Assembly (NCBI GenBank): GCA_029054245.1
Contig: JAIDFQ010000043.1
Location: 1-64,000, forward strand
DNA: 64,000 nucleotides
Direction of reading: 5' to 3'
DNA from: Lachnospiraceae bacterium
GTDB taxonomy: Bacteria > Bacillota > Clostridia > Lachnospirales > Lachnospiraceae
Shown here: positions 2,915 to 17,985 of the stretch, piece after piece
Position numbering within the stretch: the first letter of the stretch is position 1
Layout: each line of letters opens with the position of its first letter
Program-made: the position numbers and the translations under genes
Notes under the pieces: generated by a model
What the model saw: only the letters and a program-made list of their open reading frames with translations
Told to the model about the DNA's origin: nothing
Databases searched by the model: none

Positions 2915-4290
2915 TCTTTCAGGGAATCAAGGGCATGCCGTGACAAAGGAACCAGAGCAATCATATTGAAAATCGTCATCAGACCAATTCCGATATCGCC
3001 CAAATCCCAGACAAAAGTATAAGCAGCCAGACCGCCGATAAAGAGCATGACAAGGGCAAGGAGCTTGTACAGTGTCTGGGACAGCCAGTTATCGCCGAAA
3101 AGGTATGCAATGTTTGGCCTTGCATAAAACAAAATACCGACAAAAGTGGAAAAACTGAAAAGCCAAAGGATAACGGCAATAAAGATGACACCGAACATCC
3201 CCAGATGATAATTCATGGCTGTCTGCAAAAGATCCATTCCGGCAAGTCCCTGGGTTAGGTCGATAGGGGTCAGAAGCATGATCATTGCCGAACAGCTGCA
3301 GATGACAATGGTATCGATGAATACGCCAAGTGCCTGAAGCAGCCCTTCCTTAGCGGGGTGGCTCACGTCTGCTGCGGCGGCTGCGCATGGAGCGGAACCG
3401 GAGCCGGCTTCGTTAGAAAACAGCCCCCGCTTAGCGCCATTCATAATGACTGCACCGAAGCCTCCGGCAGCAACCTGGCGAAGTCCAAAGGCTTCCGAGA
3501 AGATACGTTGGAAAACAGATGGAAGCTGACCGATGTTCTGAAGGATGATGAGAATTGTAATCAGAAAATATAAGCCCGCCATAATCGGCACGACAACATT
3601 CAGTACACGCACGGTAGCATTTTTGCGAAGGACAATGACTGCCGCAATCAGCACAAGAATGATTGTGGTGTAAAGAGGAGGAATCTGGAAGGCATTTTCA
3701 AAAGCTGAGGAAACAGAATTTCCAATGACCTGACTGATGCCGCACCAGCAAATCAAACCGGAAATGGCAAACAGGATGGCAATGACAGAACGTTTCCTGT
3801 GGCTGTCTTTTTTGATGAAAAGATGATGGATATAATAGGCGGGACCGCCTCTGTAGCCTCCGTAAAGGGGGTCTTTTTCTTTATACATTTGTGCAAGGGT
3901 GGCTTCTACGAATGCGGTGGAGGATCCTAAAAGGGCAGTGACCCACATCCAGAAAACAGCGCCTGCGCCGCCTAAAGAAATTGCAGCGACAACACCTACA
4001 AGGTTACCCATCCCCACGCGCGTTGCTGTGGAAATGATAAGAGCCTGGACACCTGAAATGGAACCCTTATGGGAAGAAATCTTCTTTTCCATGGAAATTT
4101 TGAGCATCTCAGGAAAGAAACGGAAGGGCAGAAAGCGGGTGCGGATGGTAAAATAGATTCCCGAAGGAATCAAAATCAGAACCAGCAATGAAAGTCCAAG
4201 AGAGCTTCCGCCGGGCAGTGGTATGGTAATCAGATCGCCCCATAAAAACTGATAAATTGTATTGATAATCTTTATAATGGTGTCCATCAC
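2890..4290 (-). CDS. AGCS family sodium/amino-acid symporter (alanine or glycine)
   Basis: A 466-residue membrane protein of the alanine/glycine:cation symporter family, full length for the family. Family signatures include LSLGGAGAVFWMWVTALLG and GSSTAFVEATLAQMYKEKD near residues 105-140, GGPAYYIHHLF, and the conserved FSNEAGSGSAPCAAAAAD segment near residue 290. About ten membrane helices are visible. It should import alanine, glycine or a related amino acid with sodium; which one is not decidable from sequence. The gene is divergent from a LysR regulator 107 bp away, a common arrangement in which the regulator controls the transporter. It ends inside the 3' end of the preceding plus-strand gene. 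Confidence 0.92.
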   Translation of the reverse strand: MMDTIIKIINTIYQFLWGDLITIPLPGGSSLGLSLLVLILIPSGIYFTIRTRFLPFRFFPEMLKISMEKKISSHKGSISGVQALIISTATRVGMGNLVGVVAAISLGGAGAVFWMWVTALLGSSTAFVEATLAQMYKEKDPLYGGYRGGPAYYIHHLFIKKDSHRKRSVIAILFAISGLICWCGISQVIGNSVSSAFENAFQIPPLYTTIILVLIAAVIVLRKNATVRVLNVVVPIMAGLYFLITILIILQNIGQLPSVFQRIFSEAFGLRQVAAGGFGAVIMNGAKRGLFSNEAGSGSAPCAAAAADVSHPAKEGLLQALGVFIDTIVICSCSAMIMLLTPIDLTQGLAGMDLLQTAMNYHLGMFGVIFIAVILWLFSFSTFVGILFYARPNIAYLFGDNWLSQTLYKLLALVMLFIGGLAAYTFVWDLGDIGIGLMTIFNMIALVPLSRHALDSLKDYEKKRSC

Positions 4291-11123: not shown

Positions 11124-11157
11124 ATGATGCAAAAATGATGCAAGTGTGGTTTATAAT
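11124..11157 (+). promoter_or_regulatory. two phased ATGATGCA repeats and -10 box before the LysM-LRR gene
   Basis: ATGATGCA occurs at 11124-11131 and again at 11135-11142, exactly 11 bp apart. After 9 bp comes a perfect TATAAT (11152-11157). No -35 hexamer is recognisable at the expected place (11129-11134), so the promoter looks activator-dependent. The same 11-bp repeat, six times over, precedes the amidase gene at 17158. Confidence 0.75.
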
Positions 11158-11199
11158 AGGATACATCATTTGTATTGCAATAAAAAGAGGGGGCGGACT

Positions 11200-12891
11200 A
11201 TGGACAAAAGATTAGGGTGGACTGCGAAAGCCGCAATTTTTATGATAATGCTCTTAGGCATCTCAACAGACAGTCACGCATATTTTGGTCAAAATGAAGA
11301 TTATTATTTAACGGATGAGAAGCCCGAAGGCAGGGGAAGGGGACATTATCTTGAATTTGTCAGCGAAGAGACATACACCGTGAAATCTGGGGATACGCTC
11401 TGGAAAATTGCAGAGGATTATTGGGGAAATGGGACATATTATCAGAGAATATGGTCTGACAATGAAGATGTGGTCAGTATACCGGAGCATCTCATGCCCG
11501 GAATGGAACTGAAATTGGAGAAGACTCTTTACACAAAAGTAGGGATTGAGGATTATTTGAATCGTGATCAGTTCAGGCATGACCTCATTGTGGACAAAGA
11601 GGCGTTTGAGATTGAGGATGCATTTGGCAGGAAAGATTTTACACCGCCTTATTGTATTTATGTAAGTGTGCCTTATATGAATGACTTAAAGGAAGTGGAT
11701 CCATATGTGTACTGGGAGGAATTCAAGGAGGAAGTTTACAGATGCAGCAAGGAAATCTGTGGGGATCTGGTTTCAGATTTATCTTTTGAAAGATACCAGG
11801 TAACTGGGATAGGGAATCTGTGCGGCTATCATTTCACATTTGACGCAGGAGACAAGGAATATGTTATCATGGCTTATTTTTGTTATAACAGTACGACCAA
11901 AAGCGAAGCGTTTGCCTTGTGTGAGAAGGAATACTGCACAGAAGCGATACTTGAGTTGGTCAGGGGAAAAACTTGCTATGCGGCAGTGCGTTTTTTAGAT
12001 CCGGGAGTATATTACGTGAAGGGGCAGGACTATGTGGGTGCGGAAGAGTGGAACTATCCCCAGCTTCGGAATCCCTTTGTAAATGCCATGCAAAGACTCT
12101 ATTCGGGACCATTGGAGCAGGTGGAGGATTATCCGGATGATTACGCGATTGAATGGAGGGAGCCAGAATTTGAAAAGCTGGTGAGGGAAGAACTGGCCGG
12201 TTTGTGGCAGCTTACAGAGGAAGAAAAGCAGGCGTTCATGGAACGAGATGTGACAGCCAGCGATCTTGCCGGAATTGAGGAAATGGAGCTTTCTTACTAT
12301 TCCATTGAGCATGGCGGAGAGGAAGAATACCTGCGCGTGCGTCTGAACGGAAGTGCGGATAATGGAAGTGATATAACCTTGTACTCACCAGTGGAAGAGC
12401 GGCTGATGGGCACGTTGGAGGATTTAAGGCATTTCCGTGAGCTGAAAAGCCTAAATCTTATGCTGCGTGCCCCTTCTATCACGGATTTGTCCTGTATTGA
12501 AAATCTGACTAATTTAAGAGTATTGGATATGAATATCCATTCCGCCGATACAAAGGTAAAGGACGTGGATTTTTTGGGAAAACTGACCAATCTTCGTACG
12601 CTGCGCATGGGCGGATGGTATTGGAAAGCGGAATATAACGAGTACTTTGAAGGAATCACGGATCTATCCATACTCCGCAATTGTCCTCATCTTGCCTATC
12701 TGACATTGAAAGCAGGCAATGTGGAAAGCTATGACTTTTTGGGAGATTTGCCCGACATCTACTATATATATCTATCCGAAGTAAGAGGCGGGAAAAATAT
12801 AGTGCCGGAGGAGTCGTTGCTTCCCAATGCGTGTTTTATTGATATTTACGGAGAACAGGTGCGGTATGAAAACGGAGTAGGATATGATTAG
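11200..12891 (+). CDS. secreted LysM and leucine-rich-repeat protein
   Basis: The ATG at 11200 follows AGAGGGGG and begins a typical signal peptide (MDKRLGW, hydrophobic core about 9-21, cleavage near SHA). In the 563-residue protein a LysM peptidoglycan-binding domain covers about residues 58-107 (YTVKSGDTLWKIAEDYWG). A middle region of about 300 residues is not recognised. The C-terminal quarter has leucine-rich repeats of the internalin-like kind (FRELKSLNLML, NLTNLRVLDMN, KLTNLRTLRMG). It should sit outside the membrane, tethered to the wall. It is the first gene of the envelope locus and shares promoter repeats with the amidase gene. Enzymatic activity is not evident. Confidence 0.8.
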   Translation: MDKRLGWTAKAAIFMIMLLGISTDSHAYFGQNEDYYLTDEKPEGRGRGHYLEFVSEETYTVKSGDTLWKIAEDYWGNGTYYQRIWSDNEDVVSIPEHLMPGMELKLEKTLYTKVGIEDYLNRDQFRHDLIVDKEAFEIEDAFGRKDFTPPYCIYVSVPYMNDLKEVDPYVYWEEFKEEVYRCSKEICGDLVSDLSFERYQVTGIGNLCGYHFTFDAGDKEYVIMAYFCYNSTTKSEAFALCEKEYCTEAILELVRGKTCYAAVRFLDPGVYYVKGQDYVGAEEWNYPQLRNPFVNAMQRLYSGPLEQVEDYPDDYAIEWREPEFEKLVREELAGLWQLTEEEKQAFMERDVTASDLAGIEEMELSYYSIEHGGEEEYLRVRLNGSADNGSDITLYSPVEERLMGTLEDLRHFRELKSLNLMLRAPSITDLSCIENLTNLRVLDMNIHSADTKVKDVDFLGKLTNLRTLRMGGWYWKAEYNEYFEGITDLSILRNCPHLAYLTLKAGNVESYDFLGDLPDIYYIYLSEVRGGKNIVPEESLLPNACFIDIYGEQVRYENGVGYD

Positions 12892-12946
12892 CCGTAGGAA
12901 CCAACAGAAGGCTGCATAAAGCCAATGAACTTACAAAAAGTGTAGA

Positions 12947-12975
12947 TTGTGTGAATATTCTCCATATGCTATAAT
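12947..12975 (+). promoter_or_regulatory. putative promoter of the FG-GAP/two-component operon
   Basis: TTGTGT (12947-12952), 17 bp, TATAAT (12970-12975), 45 bp before the start codon at 13021. The phased ATGATGCA repeats found at the two flanking genes are absent, so expression here may be constitutive. Confidence 0.55.
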
Positions 12976-13020
12976 ATTCAAAGCACAGTCCATTACAAAA
13001 GAGAAGCCGGTGACGAAGTC

Positions 13021-14148
13021 ATGAAAAAAGGAATTCTATTTTTATCTGTATTATTGTGTAGCAGCATTCTGGTGCTGTCTTCGCCTTTCTCCGCCTGTAT
13101 CTATGCGGCAAGTGACGATATCTATAACAAAGCAGATACAGGCGATACAAAGGCGTTGGCGGAAGCTTATCGAAGCTACAGACAGCGGTTCTTACAGGTC
13201 AAAGACTATGCGGAAATCGGACCCGCAGGCTTTGATATCATAGAAGATCAGATATTTCCCATAGAAACAAAGAGTTTTGGACAGGTGTCCTTTGTTCCAG
13301 CGATGGATAAGGAGTATCACAGGCTGGCGTTGTTCTTTACCGATGAGGACGGTAGCGTTGTATATAAGACGGACCAATTGGAGGTCAATAGCCGCAATCC
13401 GGGGGAAATGAAGCAGCCCCTGCGGGAGCTTAAAGCGGTTTCCTTTCAGGAACTGAATGGGGACGGAAGGATGGATATCATCCTGATTACCACCTGCGTG
13501 AACGATAAAGGCGATTATGCAGGAAAATCATACAAGATCGGGGATGTCCTGTTTCAGAACGAAAAGGGATTTTATAGAGATTACAGGATTTCCGACAAGA
13601 TCAACCGATTCAGCATGAACAAAAGCGTGGAGAGTATTGTGGCGTTTGTAAGAGATGGATACTCTACAGAATTCCTCTATACGGCAGCGACCAGGCAGGA
13701 GCTTTTGGAGCATGGGTTTGTGATTGAAAAGGAGCAGTGTTATTACAGGCAGTTTGAGAAGCTTGGAAGGCTGGAGGTCGTACCGGGGACTTATACGATG
13801 GCAAATTTCGCCACATTTATGATTTACCTGATCAATGAGCAGGGATATATCGTGTGGAGTCTGCAGCCTATGGGAGATTTTGACAATCTGTATGCGCTCA
13901 AAGGTATTACCTGCCGGGATATTGACGGAGACGGAATGATAGATATGCTGGTGCTTGCCAAATATAGCTATGAGGGCAGCGGAAATGAAATGATTACAGA
14001 GTGTGATTACGCTATTTACTATCAGAGAACGGGTGGTTTTATTGAAGATAAGGATATCAAACTTAAGAACCCGTGCAGTGATGAAGATACTGTGGCCGGG
14101 CTTGTGGATCGTGCAAGGGCATATTGGGGGTGGAAGACAAAAGAATGA
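13021..14148 (+). CDS. exported FG-GAP/EF-hand-like protein linked to a two-component system
   Basis: A 375-residue protein with a clear N-terminal signal peptide (hydrophobic residues about 4-28, ending near IYAAS). Two segments resemble FG-GAP/VCBS blade or calcium-loop motifs: FQELNGDGRMDIILITT (about 144-160) and CRDIDGDGMIDMLVLA (about 299-314), each with a DxDGDGxxD-type loop. Otherwise it is unrecognised. Its stop overlaps the response regulator start (ATGA at 14145), so the three-gene signalling unit is translated in a coupled way. This suggests that it supplies or modifies the signal for the kinase outside the membrane; that is inference. The ribosome binding site is weak. Confidence 0.7.
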   Translation: MKKGILFLSVLLCSSILVLSSPFSACIYAASDDIYNKADTGDTKALAEAYRSYRQRFLQVKDYAEIGPAGFDIIEDQIFPIETKSFGQVSFVPAMDKEYHRLALFFTDEDGSVVYKTDQLEVNSRNPGEMKQPLRELKAVSFQELNGDGRMDIILITTCVNDKGDYAGKSYKIGDVLFQNEKGFYRDYRISDKINRFSMNKSVESIVAFVRDGYSTEFLYTAATRQELLEHGFVIEKEQCYYRQFEKLGRLEVVPGTYTMANFATFMIYLINEQGYIVWSLQPMGDFDNLYALKGITCRDIDGDGMIDMLVLAKYSYEGSGNEMITECDYAIYYQRTGGFIEDKDIKLKNPCSDEDTVAGLVDRARAYWGWKTKE

Positions 14149-14804
14149 TTAAAATATTGATTGTAGATGATGAAAGAGCGATTTGCGATTTGATTGATTT
14201 AAATCTGTCTGCGGCAGGCTATCACTGTACTTCCGTGCAGAATGGGCTGGAGGCAATTGATTTAATAGAGGAAGAAGTATTTGATTTGATTTTGCTGGAC
14301 ATCATGCTGCCTGGTGCAGATGGATATGATGTGATTGAATACATCCGCCCGTTAAAGATACCTGTCATTTTCATAACGGCAAAGCATGAAGTAAAGGACA
14401 GGGTAAAGGGACTAAAGCTTGGGGCGGATGATTATTTGGTAAAGCCCTTTGATGTGGTGGAGCTGGTGGCGCGGGTCGAGGCTGTCCTTCGCCGTTACAA
14501 TAAAACAGATAAGCTTCTTACGGCAGGAAATATTGTAGTGGATGTGGATGCAAGAAGGGTCCTTAAGGATGGAAAGCAGGTGGTCCTGACGAATAAGGAG
14601 TTTGGATTGCTGGTGCTGTTCATGCAAAATAAGAATGTAGCCTTATTCAGGGAGGCATTATATGAGAAGGTATGGGGAGATGAGTACATTGGAGACAGCC
14701 GTACGCTGGATCTTCATGTGCAGCGTCTTAGAAAGAAGCTGGGATGGGAACAGAATTTAGTGGCGGTATACAAAGTCGGCTATCGTTTAGAGGTACAGGG
14801 ATGA
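14145..14804 (+). CDS. OmpR/PhoB-family response regulator
   Basis: The ATG at 14145 is chosen from the four-base overlap with the preceding stop. The 219-residue protein has an N-terminal receiver domain with acidic pocket DDE (8-10), phosphorylation site Asp52 (LLDIMLPG), the conserved threonine at about 78 and lysine 100 (LVKPF). It is followed by an OmpR/PhoB winged helix (about 125-217, with LTNKEFGLLVLF and TLDLHVQRLRKKLG). Proteins of this class bind direct repeats spaced 10-11 bp. Such repeats lie in front of the LysM-LRR and amidase genes on either side. It overlaps the kinase gene by four bases (ATGA). Confidence 0.95.
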   Translation: MIKILIVDDERAICDLIDLNLSAAGYHCTSVQNGLEAIDLIEEEVFDLILLDIMLPGADGYDVIEYIRPLKIPVIFITAKHEVKDRVKGLKLGADDYLVKPFDVVELVARVEAVLRRYNKTDKLLTAGNIVVDVDARRVLKDGKQVVLTNKEFGLLVLFMQNKNVALFREALYEKVWGDEYIGDSRTLDLHVQRLRKKLGWEQNLVAVYKVGYRLEVQG

Positions 14805-16234
14805 AGTTTTCTTTGAAATTGCTGCTGTGGACGATGATCGTCATGGCAATTGCGCTTGGAATCAGCGGCTTTTATTTTGTCAATTATGTATTCGAGACTT
14901 CCCTGGAAAGAGAAGCGGGGCAGGCGCTTGATGAAAACAGTATTTTATGTTTTGCATTTGAGACGGCTGTTTTAAACGTGCCGGCGAAATATGATGTTCT
15001 GCAGGACAATACCGTAGAGCAGATAGCGGCAAATCTGGAATCAGGCGGACAAAACGCGAACCGCATGCTGCGTCTGTCCGATGAAGAAAAAAGTACACTC
15101 TATGCCAGCGGCGGGTTTGAGACGGATGACGAACTGCTGGCGCAGACAGATGCAGTCACAAAGACATACCGTACGATTCTCTTAAACGGCAGTTATTATA
15201 TTCAGACGGGCAGCGCCGTCAACGCCCTTGACAGGGTGTTGTATTTAGAAACACTGCGGGATGTATCAGAGGTTTTTAATGAGAGAAAATTGGGATTTAA
15301 AGTATATCAGCGTGTAACCATTATCATGCTGTTTTTTGGAACCATTATCATGCATCTGATTTCTTCCTGGCTGACCAAGCCTATCCGCCTTCTAACGAAG
15401 GCAACCAAGCGCATGGCGGCGGGGGATTACGACTACAGGGCAAAGCAGATCAGCGATGATGAATTGGGACGCCTGACCCTTGATTTTAATCAGATGGCGG
15501 AGGCACTGGAAGAGAATATCAACAAATTAGAGGATGAGATACAGGCAAGGGAAGACTTTGTAGGTGCGTTTGCCCATGAATTAAAAACGCCTCTGACTGC
15601 AATCATTGGATATGCAGATATGCTTCGCTCCCGAAAGCTGGATGAGGAAAAGAGTTTTTTATCTGCTAATTATATTTACACGGAAGGAAAGAGACTGGAA
15701 GCGATGTCCATCCGGCTTTTAGATATCATGGTGACCAGGCATGGGCAGGTGCAGTTCCAGGAGGTATCGGCGGAAAGCCTGTTTCTTTACGTCAAAGATA
15801 TGTTCAAGACGAATGAAAGCATGAAGTTTGAATATCACTACGACAAAGCCAATGTGTGGGCAGAGAGCAATATGATCATAACGGTTTTGATCAATCTTCT
15901 TGACAATGCCTGCAAGGCGTCCGATCCGGGCAGCGTCATAGAAATAAGCGGCAGGTCCGAAGAGAGCGGCTATCGTTTCGGGGTAAGGGATCATGGTATC
16001 GGAATACCGCAGCAGGAATTGCAGAAGATTACAATGGCATTTTATATGGTCGATAAATCAAGATCCAGAAGCAGAAATGGAGCTGGTCTGGGGCTTTCCC
16101 TGTGTACAGAGATTTTATCGCTCCATGACAGTAGTCTCGAGATCGAAAGTACGCTGGGAGAGGGAACGAGCATCAGTTTTATCCTTCCTGACAGAAGAAA
16201 GGAGGATGCAGCGAATGAAAAAGCCGACCATTAA
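14801..16234 (+). CDS. sensor histidine kinase
   Basis: A 477-residue membrane kinase. A first membrane helix lies at about residues 7-28, an external sensor region of about 140 residues follows, and a second helix is near 171-188. Then come a HAMP linker (KPIRLLTKATKRMAAGDYDYR), the H-box AHELKTPLT with phospho-acceptor His259, an N-box (LINLLDNACKAS) and G-boxes DHGIGIP and NGAGLGLSL. All catalytic motifs are present. The start at 14801 is four-base-overlapped with the regulator gene, its evident partner. The external region is not a recognised sensor fold. The gene overlaps the next one by 20 bases. Confidence 0.94.
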   Translation: MKFSLKLLLWTMIVMAIALGISGFYFVNYVFETSLEREAGQALDENSILCFAFETAVLNVPAKYDVLQDNTVEQIAANLESGGQNANRMLRLSDEEKSTLYASGGFETDDELLAQTDAVTKTYRTILLNGSYYIQTGSAVNALDRVLYLETLRDVSEVFNERKLGFKVYQRVTIIMLFFGTIIMHLISSWLTKPIRLLTKATKRMAAGDYDYRAKQISDDELGRLTLDFNQMAEALEENINKLEDEIQAREDFVGAFAHELKTPLTAIIGYADMLRSRKLDEEKSFLSANYIYTEGKRLEAMSIRLLDIMVTRHGQVQFQEVSAESLFLYVKDMFKTNESMKFEYHYDKANVWAESNMIITVLINLLDNACKASDPGSVIEISGRSEESGYRFGVRDHGIGIPQQELQKITMAFYMVDKSRSRSRNGAGLGLSLCTEILSLHDSSLEIESTLGEGTSISFILPDRRKEDAANEKADH

Positions 16235-17045
16235 GTATGCCTACTATATTTTTGCAATATTGGTCATGGTACTATCCATCTGGGGACCGGAAATGCTTGC
16301 AAGATACAGGGACCGGACGGTACTTGACAGAATCAATACACAGACTTCTGAGATGGAAGGAGAGGGCTACAGATATAAGCTTGATATCAATGAAAAGTTA
16401 TACATCCTCTCTCAGGCGCTGAACAGCCAGAGCCCGCCGGAAAGCGAACAGAATGCACTTACCAGGCTGGAGGATGAAACCAAGGAGTATCAGGAACTGG
16501 ATGGGACGTATGCTTTCGTGGTCAACCACAGGGGACCTACCGGAAGGGAAATAACGGATGAGCAGATTTTTAACACCTGTAATCAGACCATTGCAGCATT
16601 AAAGGATCTTGACATACTGCCGGATACGGTGAAAGCTGTAGGAGGAGGGGACTATGATGCTACACTGTACTCTGCAATTGATGTTTTAGAGCCGAGAAAC
16701 AATGTTGCAGTCTGGAAGGTGAGCCTTTCTACCAATGTGAAAAATGCGGATAAGAGCAATCATCTCATAGACGCCTATCTGGATGCAGATGACGGAAAAG
16801 TGTACGAATTTTATGCCCGGACAGATTGGGAATGGAAGGACATCGATCCTGACGCACTCATAGAAAAGTGGAGCGCTTATATGGGGCTTTCAAAGCCGCT
16901 TCCTTATGAGACGGAAAATCCGCTGTTGGAATCCACGCCCTATTACAAAAAGTATGTTTTTTCGGGGAATGGCGAGGGAACAAGCATCGTGACGATTGGA
17001 TTTTATGAGGGAATTAATGAGCTGTTTTTGAAAATATCAAAATGA
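16215..17045 (+). CDS. membrane-anchored extracytoplasmic protein of the two-component operon
   Basis: The start at 16215 has GGAGG ten bases upstream and overlaps the kinase gene by 20 bases. The 276-residue product has one N-terminal membrane helix (about 7-25, YYIFAILVMVLSIWGPEML), then a soluble domain expected outside. The segment VWKVSLSTNVKNADKSNHLI followed by DADDGKVYEFYARTDWEW resembles PepSY-like or YycH/YycI-like accessory domains in layout, but I cannot assign it. Position directly after a kinase suggests a modulator of signalling, like YycH/YycI for WalK. That role is inference. Its stop codon lies inside the first of the phased repeats of the next promoter. Confidence 0.7.
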   Translation: MKKPTIKYAYYIFAILVMVLSIWGPEMLARYRDRTVLDRINTQTSEMEGEGYRYKLDINEKLYILSQALNSQSPPESEQNALTRLEDETKEYQELDGTYAFVVNHRGPTGREITDEQIFNTCNQTIAALKDLDILPDTVKAVGGGDYDATLYSAIDVLEPRNNVAVWKVSLSTNVKNADKSNHLIDAYLDADDGKVYEFYARTDWEWKDIDPDALIEKWSAYMGLSKPLPYETENPLLESTPYYKKYVFSGNGEGTSIVTIGFYEGINELFLKISK

Positions 17046-17128
17046 TGCAGATTTGATGCAAAAATGATGGTAATATGATGCAAGAATGATGAAAAAATGA
17101 TGCACCGCGTGTGTATGCTGAATATAAG
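17042..17128 (+). promoter_or_regulatory. six 11-bp phased direct repeats and -10 region before the amidase gene
   Basis: Copies of an ATGATGCA-like octamer start at 17042, 17053, 17064, 17075, 17086 and 17097, an exact 11-bp period. The second copy starts TTGATG; the third and fifth end differently (GG and GA). A possible -10, TATGCT, lies at 17114-17119, 9 bp after the last copy, the same distance as at the LysM-LRR promoter. TATAAG at 17123-17128 is an alternative -10. No -35 box is seen. This looks like an activator-binding array for an OmpR/PhoB-class regulator. Confidence 0.82.
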
Positions 17129-17157
17129 CAGTAAAACACGAAAGGGGCATCATTTTT

Positions 17158-17985
17158 ATGTACGAGAGAAAAAAGGGCGGATGGAAAAACAGAAAGAAAA
17201 AGAATCGGGAGGCAGGTTTTTTGCAGGCAGCGTTGCTTGTGATTCTGACGGTGGGAATATGTACTTTTATGGAAATGGTAGCGCTGGCGGCACCGGCGCC
17301 GCCAGTAAATCTGCCTGTAAAGGGAAAAGAGAAAGAAGCGATGCAGACGTCTTGGATGCTGGAAGTAGCTGAAAATGTGCTAGTAGCGCAGAACTTAATG
17401 ATGGAAAAAGCACAGAAAGGGGAAGGACCGCTTATCGTGGTGGATGCAGGACATGGGGGTGAAGATTCAGGATGCCTGGGATTCGGGACTTATGAAAAGG
17501 ACATTAATCTTCAGATTGCCCTTAGAGTAAAGCAATGTTTGGAGAAAAGAGGATTCCGGGTCATGATGCTCCGGGAGACAGATGAATTTCTTGCAATAGA
17601 GGAGCGGGCAGAGCTGGCAAACAGTCATCAGGCGGATGCCTATGTGAGCATTCATCAAAATACATATGAGGGCAGCGATAAGAGCGTAAGTGGGATTGAA
17701 ACATGGTATGACGGAGCTGATACGGATAGGGATAACGAAAGGCTTGCAAGGCTGATCCATCAGCAGACCATAAAGAGTACCGGGGCAAATGAGAGAATGC
17801 TGTGGGATATAGCGGATTTGTATGTCACCAATAAGACGCTGATGCCAGCGTGTCTGATAGAAACAGGATTTTTGACGAATCAGAAGGAATGTCGCCTTCT
17901 TTCCACAGACGAATATCAAGAAAAAATTGCAGAGGGAATTGCGGAAGGGATTGAAATGTACTTTCAATCAGAAACAGATATGTGA
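17158..17985 (+). CDS. N-acetylmuramoyl-L-alanine amidase (Amidase_3)
   Basis: A zinc-dependent peptidoglycan amidase of the CwlB/AmiC family that cuts the bond between MurNAc and the stem peptide. In this 275-residue protein a very basic start (RKKGGWKNRKKK) precedes a hydrophobic export segment (about 21-45). The catalytic domain follows with zinc ligands His99 (DAGHGG), Glu113 and His166 (SIHQN) and the catalytic Glu235 (LIETGF). All four are present. It has no SH3 or other wall-binding repeat. Expression is probably controlled by the phased-repeat promoter upstream and so by the neighbouring two-component system. The ribosome binding site is AAAGGGG. Confidence 0.93.
   Translation: MYERKKGGWKNRKKKNREAGFLQAALLVILTVGICTFMEMVALAAPAPPVNLPVKGKEKEAMQTSWMLEVAENVLVAQNLMMEKAQKGEGPLIVVDAGHGGEDSGCLGFGTYEKDINLQIALRVKQCLEKRGFRVMMLRETDEFLAIEERAELANSHQADAYVSIHQNTYEGSDKSVSGIETWYDGADTDRDNERLARLIHQQTIKSTGANERMLWDIADLYVTNKTLMPACLIETGFLTNQKECRLLSTDEYQEKIAEGIAEGIEMYFQSETDM

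Follow-up and report, generated by a model that had tools for sequence, protein, structure and literature searches.

The locus and its repeat arrays

The window, by which we mean the whole stretch of 64,000 nucleotides that was analysed, carries a gene cassette with a two-component system and two arrays of 11-bp direct repeats, one before the gene of an exported LysM-LRR protein and the other before an amidase gene. The features are the following.

11124..11145, + strand: two-unit array (one presumed dimer site) before the LysM-LRR gene, found in the sequence and by pattern scans
11152..11157, + strand: -10 box TATAAT of the two-unit promoter, starting 11 bp after the last TGATG
11200..12891, + strand: gene of a LysM-LRR exported protein, predicted start, presumed target (Pfam LysM 7e-10, LRR_4 1.1e-08)
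13021..14148, + strand: exported FG-GAP-like protein that opens the conserved cassette (80 of 80 loci; PF13517 below cut-off)
14145..14804, + strand: OmpR/PhoB-type response regulator, presumed array binder (Response_reg, Trans_reg_C; co-occurrence)
14801..16234, + strand: sensor histidine kinase with HAMP, HisKA and HATPase_c domains, predicted start (Pfam; 80 of 80 loci)
16206..17045, + strand: membrane-anchored protein, predicted start, last gene before the array (80 of 80 loci)
17042..17107, + strand: array of six 11-bp direct repeat units, presumably three dimer sites, upstream of the amidase gene, found in the sequence and by the tandem-repeat scan, conserved in 70 of 71 loci
17105..17145, + strand: stem-loop whose left part contains the -10 box, a terminator-like hairpin in relatives, weak in the window itself
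17114..17119, + strand: -10 box TATGCT of the amidase promoter, beginning 11 bp beyond the final TGATG of the array, with no -35 box at the usual distance
17158..17985, + strand: exported N-acetylmuramoyl-L-alanine amidase (Amidase_3, Pfam 2.9e-53), presumed target

The units of the amidase array start at 17042, 17053, 17064, 17075, 17086 and 17097, in exact 11-bp steps, and those of the LysM-LRR array at 11124 and 11135. The original prediction of phased 11-bp repeats at these starts, with a response regulator gene between the two arrays, is confirmed in the sequence. Its description of the units as eight copies of ATGATG has to be relaxed: all eight share TGATG, mostly within TGATGCA, but the unit at 17053 starts with TTGATG and the one at 17064 reads ATGATGGTAAT and does not fit ATGATGNANNN. 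The TGA of the first unit in the six-unit array is at the same time the stop codon of the upstream gene (16206..17045). The predicted gap of 9 bp to both -10 boxes is found when it is counted from ATGATGCA, and corresponds to 11 bp counted from the last TGATG; as was also predicted, inspection by eye reveals no -35-like hexamer at the usual distance at either promoter.

The six-unit array tops the 29 rows of the tandem-repeat scan of the window (score 76, period 11, 6.0 copies). With up to two mismatches, ATGATGNANNNATGATGNA has 8 matches in the window, against a mean of 2.14 and a maximum of 6 in 100 shuffles; six of the eight fall in the two arrays, and the other two, at 3812 (1 mismatch) and 56384 (2 mismatches), look like chance. 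The earlier statement that the window holds no further copy is thus right at full match, but the genome outside the window has more copies.

The regulator belongs to the OmpR/PhoB family by its two domains (PF00072, 5.9e-30; PF00486, 5.7e-21). Its assignment to PhoB (TIGR02154, score 197.8 for a cut-off of 296.2), to WalR/YycF (NF040534, 182.7 for 340) or to MtrA (NF040689, 194.2 for 300) was rejected. The kinase scores 190.3 with the WalK model, below the cut-off of 725, and the Amidase_3 protein scores 151.2 with the CwlD model TIGR02883, below the curated cut-off of 221.55. The protein encoded at 16206..17045 has no family match in Pfam or NCBIfam.

Conservation of the arrays and the hairpin at the amidase promoter

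A search of the Lachnospiraceae with the regulator gave 140 confirmed candidate loci, and the best 80 of these, 930,797 bases in total, were compared. The cassette made of the FG-GAP-like protein, the regulator, the kinase and the membrane protein is present in all 80. Exact runs of TGATG with a period of 11 reach six copies 21 times in these loci, whereas no run longer than a pair is seen at any other period between 6 and 25, the harmonic period of 22 excepted. The amidase gene could be located in 71 of the 80 loci, and its upstream region was scored for an array of ATG cores (out of 6) accompanied by a TANNNT box at the same spacing. The array score is at least 3 in 70 of the 71 loci and at least 5 in 51 of them, and only 7 of 1694 other slices reach 3. 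The units of the Acetatifactor-type loci are degenerate at their first two bases (for example GTATG, AGATG, TTATG and ATATG), with the phase and the spacing kept. The conservation expected of the repeats at orthologous loci is therefore borne out for the amidase array, while the site at 11124 and its LysM-LRR gene are local.

In the 69 loci where 3 kb or more of sequence precedes the regulator, this region contains no LysM-LRR match, the other 11 loci being too short to tell; a single remote match (23%) occurs elsewhere. In the nearest relative, L009, whose regulator is 99% identical, the two-unit array and its TATAAT box are kept (L009:4673-4717) and the LysM-LRR gene is absent, so that the promoter directly precedes the cassette. 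The gene would have been either gained in the lineage of the window or lost in L009. LysM-LRR-like genes, grouped by protein similarity, carry arrays of their own elsewhere, in the same genome (L090) and in relatives (L181 and L199). Furthermore, 20 of the 80 loci, 19 of the Acetatifactor-type group plus L009, have one pair of units at the start of the regulator's operon, 1.15-1.35 kb ahead of the regulator gene and often with a decayed unit upstream, a position that suggests self-control in these loci. The cassette promoter of the window itself (before 13021) has no array.

A second element accompanies the amidase promoter. Downstream of the array, a stem-loop with z <= -3 is found in 36 of 70 loci, against 3 of 140 control stretches. 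The -10 box is paired in 33 of these 36 loci, which include L074, L065, L079 and L052, and a T-run follows the hairpin in 28 of the 33. To judge from these features, the hairpin resembles a terminator that would serve the upstream operon and enclose the amidase promoter; transcripts begun at this promoter would lack the left arm, which holds the -10 box.

Sites, targets and promoter geometry across genomes

In the 3.85-Mb genome to which the window belongs, two units followed by a -10 box occur at 8 exact places, and with up to one mismatch at 21 places, against 2 for the reversed pattern; at the latter tolerance, three or more units are found at five places, to which a near-match overlapping a two-unit site is to be added. 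The two arrays originally described are two of the eight exact sites found in the genome, and that view of the system was too narrow. The four-unit pattern, with up to two mismatches, is found in 38 of 194 genomes, the present one included. Within the genus it is found in 30 of 37 genomes and the reversed control in none; outside the genus it is found in 8 of 157, and the control also matches in 5 of these 8. The matches outside the genus are mostly of low complexity (G045 and G121, for example), with the exception of G067, G082 and G051. Exact promoter matches number 81 in nine regulator-positive genomes of the genus (reversed control, 1) and 5 in eight regulator-negative ones (control, 2). 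Four of these 86 places were not parsed (G021:C129, two of G016:C61 and one of G007:C40) and one G051 site was added, which gives 83 sites whose first genes fall into 38 groups by protein similarity.

The first gene after the site encodes an N-terminal hydrophobic segment in 73 of the 83 cases, against 22 of the 61 ORFs of the window (Fisher 8.8e-11), the measure being a crude hydropathy cut-off applied to automatically chosen reading frames. The contrast is weaker with the ORFs of the 80 loci (52% of 773 with a segment), which repeat the same envelope cassette. The genome scan thus places the sites mostly before genes of exported or membrane proteins, as the original prediction had anticipated for envelope genes. 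Pfam was run on representatives of 20 of the 38 target groups: eight have a match above the curated cut-off (LRR_4; LysM; Sulfatase; VIT and VWA; MBOAT; WG repeats; DUF5050; DUF3298), three only below it (two LRR_5, one PdaC), and nine have none. Among the ten first genes without a hydrophobic segment, one is a regulator homologue itself (L234), and the one at L192 encodes a protein that we take to resemble a RarA-type ATPase. On contig C9 of G019 (2-25 kb; L215, L216 and L217), four near-identical two-unit promoters (TGATGCAAAAATGATGCAA...ATTAAAAT) lie within 23 kb, and three of them precede proteins with an N-terminal hydrophobic segment, which points to a cluster of regulon members.

The geometry of the promoters is strict. 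In the 42 arrays of at least four units that were picked without any -10 requirement, a TANNNT box stands exactly 11 bp after the array in all 42, and no other offset from 0 to 30 holds such a box in more than 6. The low-complexity L115 was removed by hand from this set, and L112, L130 and L131 did not come under the four-unit rule, the box being at 11 bp in the first two and no TANNNT box being present in L131. In keeping with the promoter architecture described originally, the arrays occupy a constant position, the one that a -35 box would otherwise take. As for L131 (G036:C138), its TGTGATGCAAA repeat keeps the same 11-bp phase, stands before a presumably PadR-like gene and is probably a different thing.

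The number of units was counted with a position matrix whose false-positive rate is 0.9% per unit at the chosen cut-off. Among 81 sites, L233 and L236 being left out because they look like chance (both are kept in the 83-site export count), 25 have two units, 3 have three, 38 have four, one has five and 14 have six. The count is even in 77 of the 81, with parity p values that are too small because related sites are treated as independent. The groups of targets are wholly even in 33 of 36 cases, and the differences within a group are mostly of two units (2 and 4, 4 and 6). A plainer rule, allowing one mismatch or the ATG core, gives 66 even and 7 odd counts for 73 non-amidase sites. The matrix misfits the Acetatifactor-type arrays, and 21 of 70 amidase promoters are read by it as a single unit; by the core rule, these 70 promoters have six units in 45 cases, four in 10, eight in one, two in 4, five in 2, three in 5 and none in 3. 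Most of the seven odd amidase arrays end at a unit that resembles a decayed one (such as GTTTGCAAAAA), less clearly so in L069, so that evenness holds less strictly at the amidase promoters. The eight-unit array, again even, lies upstream of the amidase gene in L084. An even number of units fits head-to-tail binding by dimers.

The quality of the -10 box varies with the number of units. Its mean match to TATAAT is 5.64, 4.66 and 4.07 out of 6 for two, four and six units, respectively (two against four or more units, p 1.1e-6). The trade-off is not smooth, since the four odd-count sites all have TATAAT. These data bear on the sign of the control. The regulator might repress, by blocking the polymerase at promoters whose activity would otherwise depend on an extended -10 box; the overlap of the array with the -35 region agrees with this, as does the preference for T (0.74) and G (0.57) immediately in front of the -10 box. 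We consider this improbable, because dependence on an activator fits better with the missing -35 hexamer and with -10 boxes that become poorer as the units become more numerous.

The short unit, the low-complexity look-alikes outside the genus (G045 and G121) and the repeat without a -10 box in L131 could also evoke functionless slippage of tandem repeats, or coding and low-complexity repeats. This explanation is contradicted by the conservation of place, phase and -10 spacing, by the even counts and by reversed controls that are close to zero in the genus; we leave it hardly any probability and reject it. The repeats are real conserved promoter elements, and the OmpR/PhoB-type system that acts on them is most likely the adjacent one.

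The regulator and a model for its regulon

The consensus of the array unit is TGATGCAANNN. The arrays have the form known for operators of the OmpR/PhoB family, in which units of about 11 bp are repeated directly in the vicinity of the -35 region, and do not match the WalR operator TGTWAH-N5-TGTWAH; we infer the identity of the binder from the company that the arrays keep. Of the 37 genomes of the genus, 29 have an orthologue of the regulator (80-100% identity), and four-unit arrays are found in every one of these 29. Eight genomes lack the orthologue, their best paralogues being at 41-45%, and only one of them, G007, has such arrays (Fisher 7.8e-7). Sites in related genomes are not independent of one another. 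The pairing of the arrays with this regulator, proposed originally from its position between them, is thus upheld by their co-occurrence. The two four-unit matches of G007, where no orthologue is detectable, count against it. In G012, which also has no detected orthologue, a convincing two-unit promoter precedes a lipoprotein-like gene (L230, G012:C61); it could be a remnant or belong to a transferred gene.

The recognition helix gives a second, weaker link. Of the 21 homologues compared at 55-61% identity, 8 share the HVQR-type helix with the window protein and 13 have other helices. On the strand of the regulator and within the fetched stretch, 4 of the 8 and none of the 13 have the paired motif together with a -10 box; it lies at -44 in L242, at -59 in L249 (weak), at -140 in L234 and 3.1 kb downstream in L241. 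L243, also of the HVQR type, has the paired motif on the opposite strand. The reversed control gives 0 matches in the 230,925 bases of the whole comparison. This comparison is post hoc, and L234 was fetched since its array was already known; the p value is 0.012 with L234 and 0.031 without it (3 of 7 against 0 of 13). Three orthologues at 75-79% outside the genus, with the same helix type (L261-L263; G049, G058 and G069), have no site in the regulator stretch and no four-unit array. L234 itself (G051:C47) encodes a homologue of 59% identity whose own start is preceded, at a distance of about 140 bp, by the paired motif and TATAAT, a layout pointing to self-control outside the genus.

The genome contains 61 matches to the regulator, and the arrays might serve another of its many OmpR/PhoB-type proteins, the adjacency then reflecting only that the amidase is a target; the arrays of G007 without an orthologue would agree with this. 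Yet paralogues at 41-45% are present in all eight regulator-negative genomes and seven of these have no four-unit arrays. Moreover, the paired motif is near none of seven paralogues of the genome in the stretches searched. Control by a paralogue thus seems quite unlikely, and we consider it very probable, from the comparison of genomes, that the arrays are operators of the regulator encoded at 14145-14804, built in 22-bp dimer steps and activating an envelope regulon.

In the model we propose, the regulator would be phosphorylated by the neighbouring kinase and would then bind the 11-bp direct repeats (TGATGCAANNN) head-to-tail as dimers, each covering 22 bp, possibly in a cooperative manner. 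The gene-proximal dimer would occupy the place of the missing -35 box and recruit the RNA polymerase to the -10 box located 11 bp after the last TGATG, by analogy with PhoB at the pho boxes. The promoters would stack one, two or three such dimers, and those with more dimers would be expected to depend more strongly on the regulator, given their poorer -10 boxes. The regulon would be composed mostly of exported proteins, lipoproteins and membrane proteins, the amidase beside the regulator being the member that can be followed across genera. We lean, with some reserve, towards an undescribed envelope regulon of the Lachnospiraceae with quantised operators, in which whole 22-bp dimer sites are gained or lost, to give 2, 4, 6 and in one case 8 units, and a larger number of dimers is offset by a weaker -10 box, so that each target has its own activation threshold.

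Several elements of this model have precedents. The PhoB operator takes the place of the -35 box, and WalR has cell-wall targets in Bacillus. In the excerpts of the published work considered here, the pho box of E. coli consists of two 11-nt direct repeat units bound head-to-tail by PhoB (PMC4415409); its unit is CTGTCAT and ours TGATGCA, and the present arrays extend to six or eight units. WalR/VicR (YycF) recognizes the direct repeat TGTWAH-N5-TGTWAH (PMC4168254), alike in its 11-bp period and different in its half-site. The operators of Streptomyces PhoP are likewise made of 11-nt direct repeat units, of which pstS has two and pitH2 has four (PMC7866108, PMC4415409); the unit is another one and the regulon is that of phosphate. 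In the case of E. coli ArcA, the sections of PMC3798270 concerned describe arrays in which two to five direct repeats follow one another, their centres mainly 11 bp apart, with 66, 27 and 14 equally spaced sites of two, three and four repeats, and 74 operons directly repressed for 11 activated. Three-repeat sites, for which binding of a dimer plus a monomer or of two dimers is left unsettled in that paper, outnumber four-repeat sites there, whereas odd counts make up 4 of 81 here. RR_1586 of C. difficile, an OmpR-family regulator with a direct repeat of an 11-nt unit whose regulon was sought by comparative genomics (PMC6222199), differs, according to the excerpt, by its unit DRTTAAGNWWW, the single pair of its consensus and its many transport genes. 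None of the titles among the literature matches listed deals with the present regulator and the motif strings led to no paper, in a coverage that leaves out most subscription papers. Tandem 11-bp operators are therefore already known from PhoB, PhoP, WalR and ArcA, and the new elements are the envelope regulon, the nearly always even arrays and the trade-off with the strength of the -10 box.

In conclusion, a two-component system that is unnamed but widely conserved in gut bacteria gains a likely binding code, a regulon and a promoter logic that can be tested. The natural series of promoters with two, four and six units and graded -10 boxes offers a way to investigate how the copy number of an operator sets the threshold and the steepness of a response. 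The even number of units would be the genomic footprint of dimer binding and, if this is true, the evolution of operators in dimer-sized steps would be readable directly from genomes.
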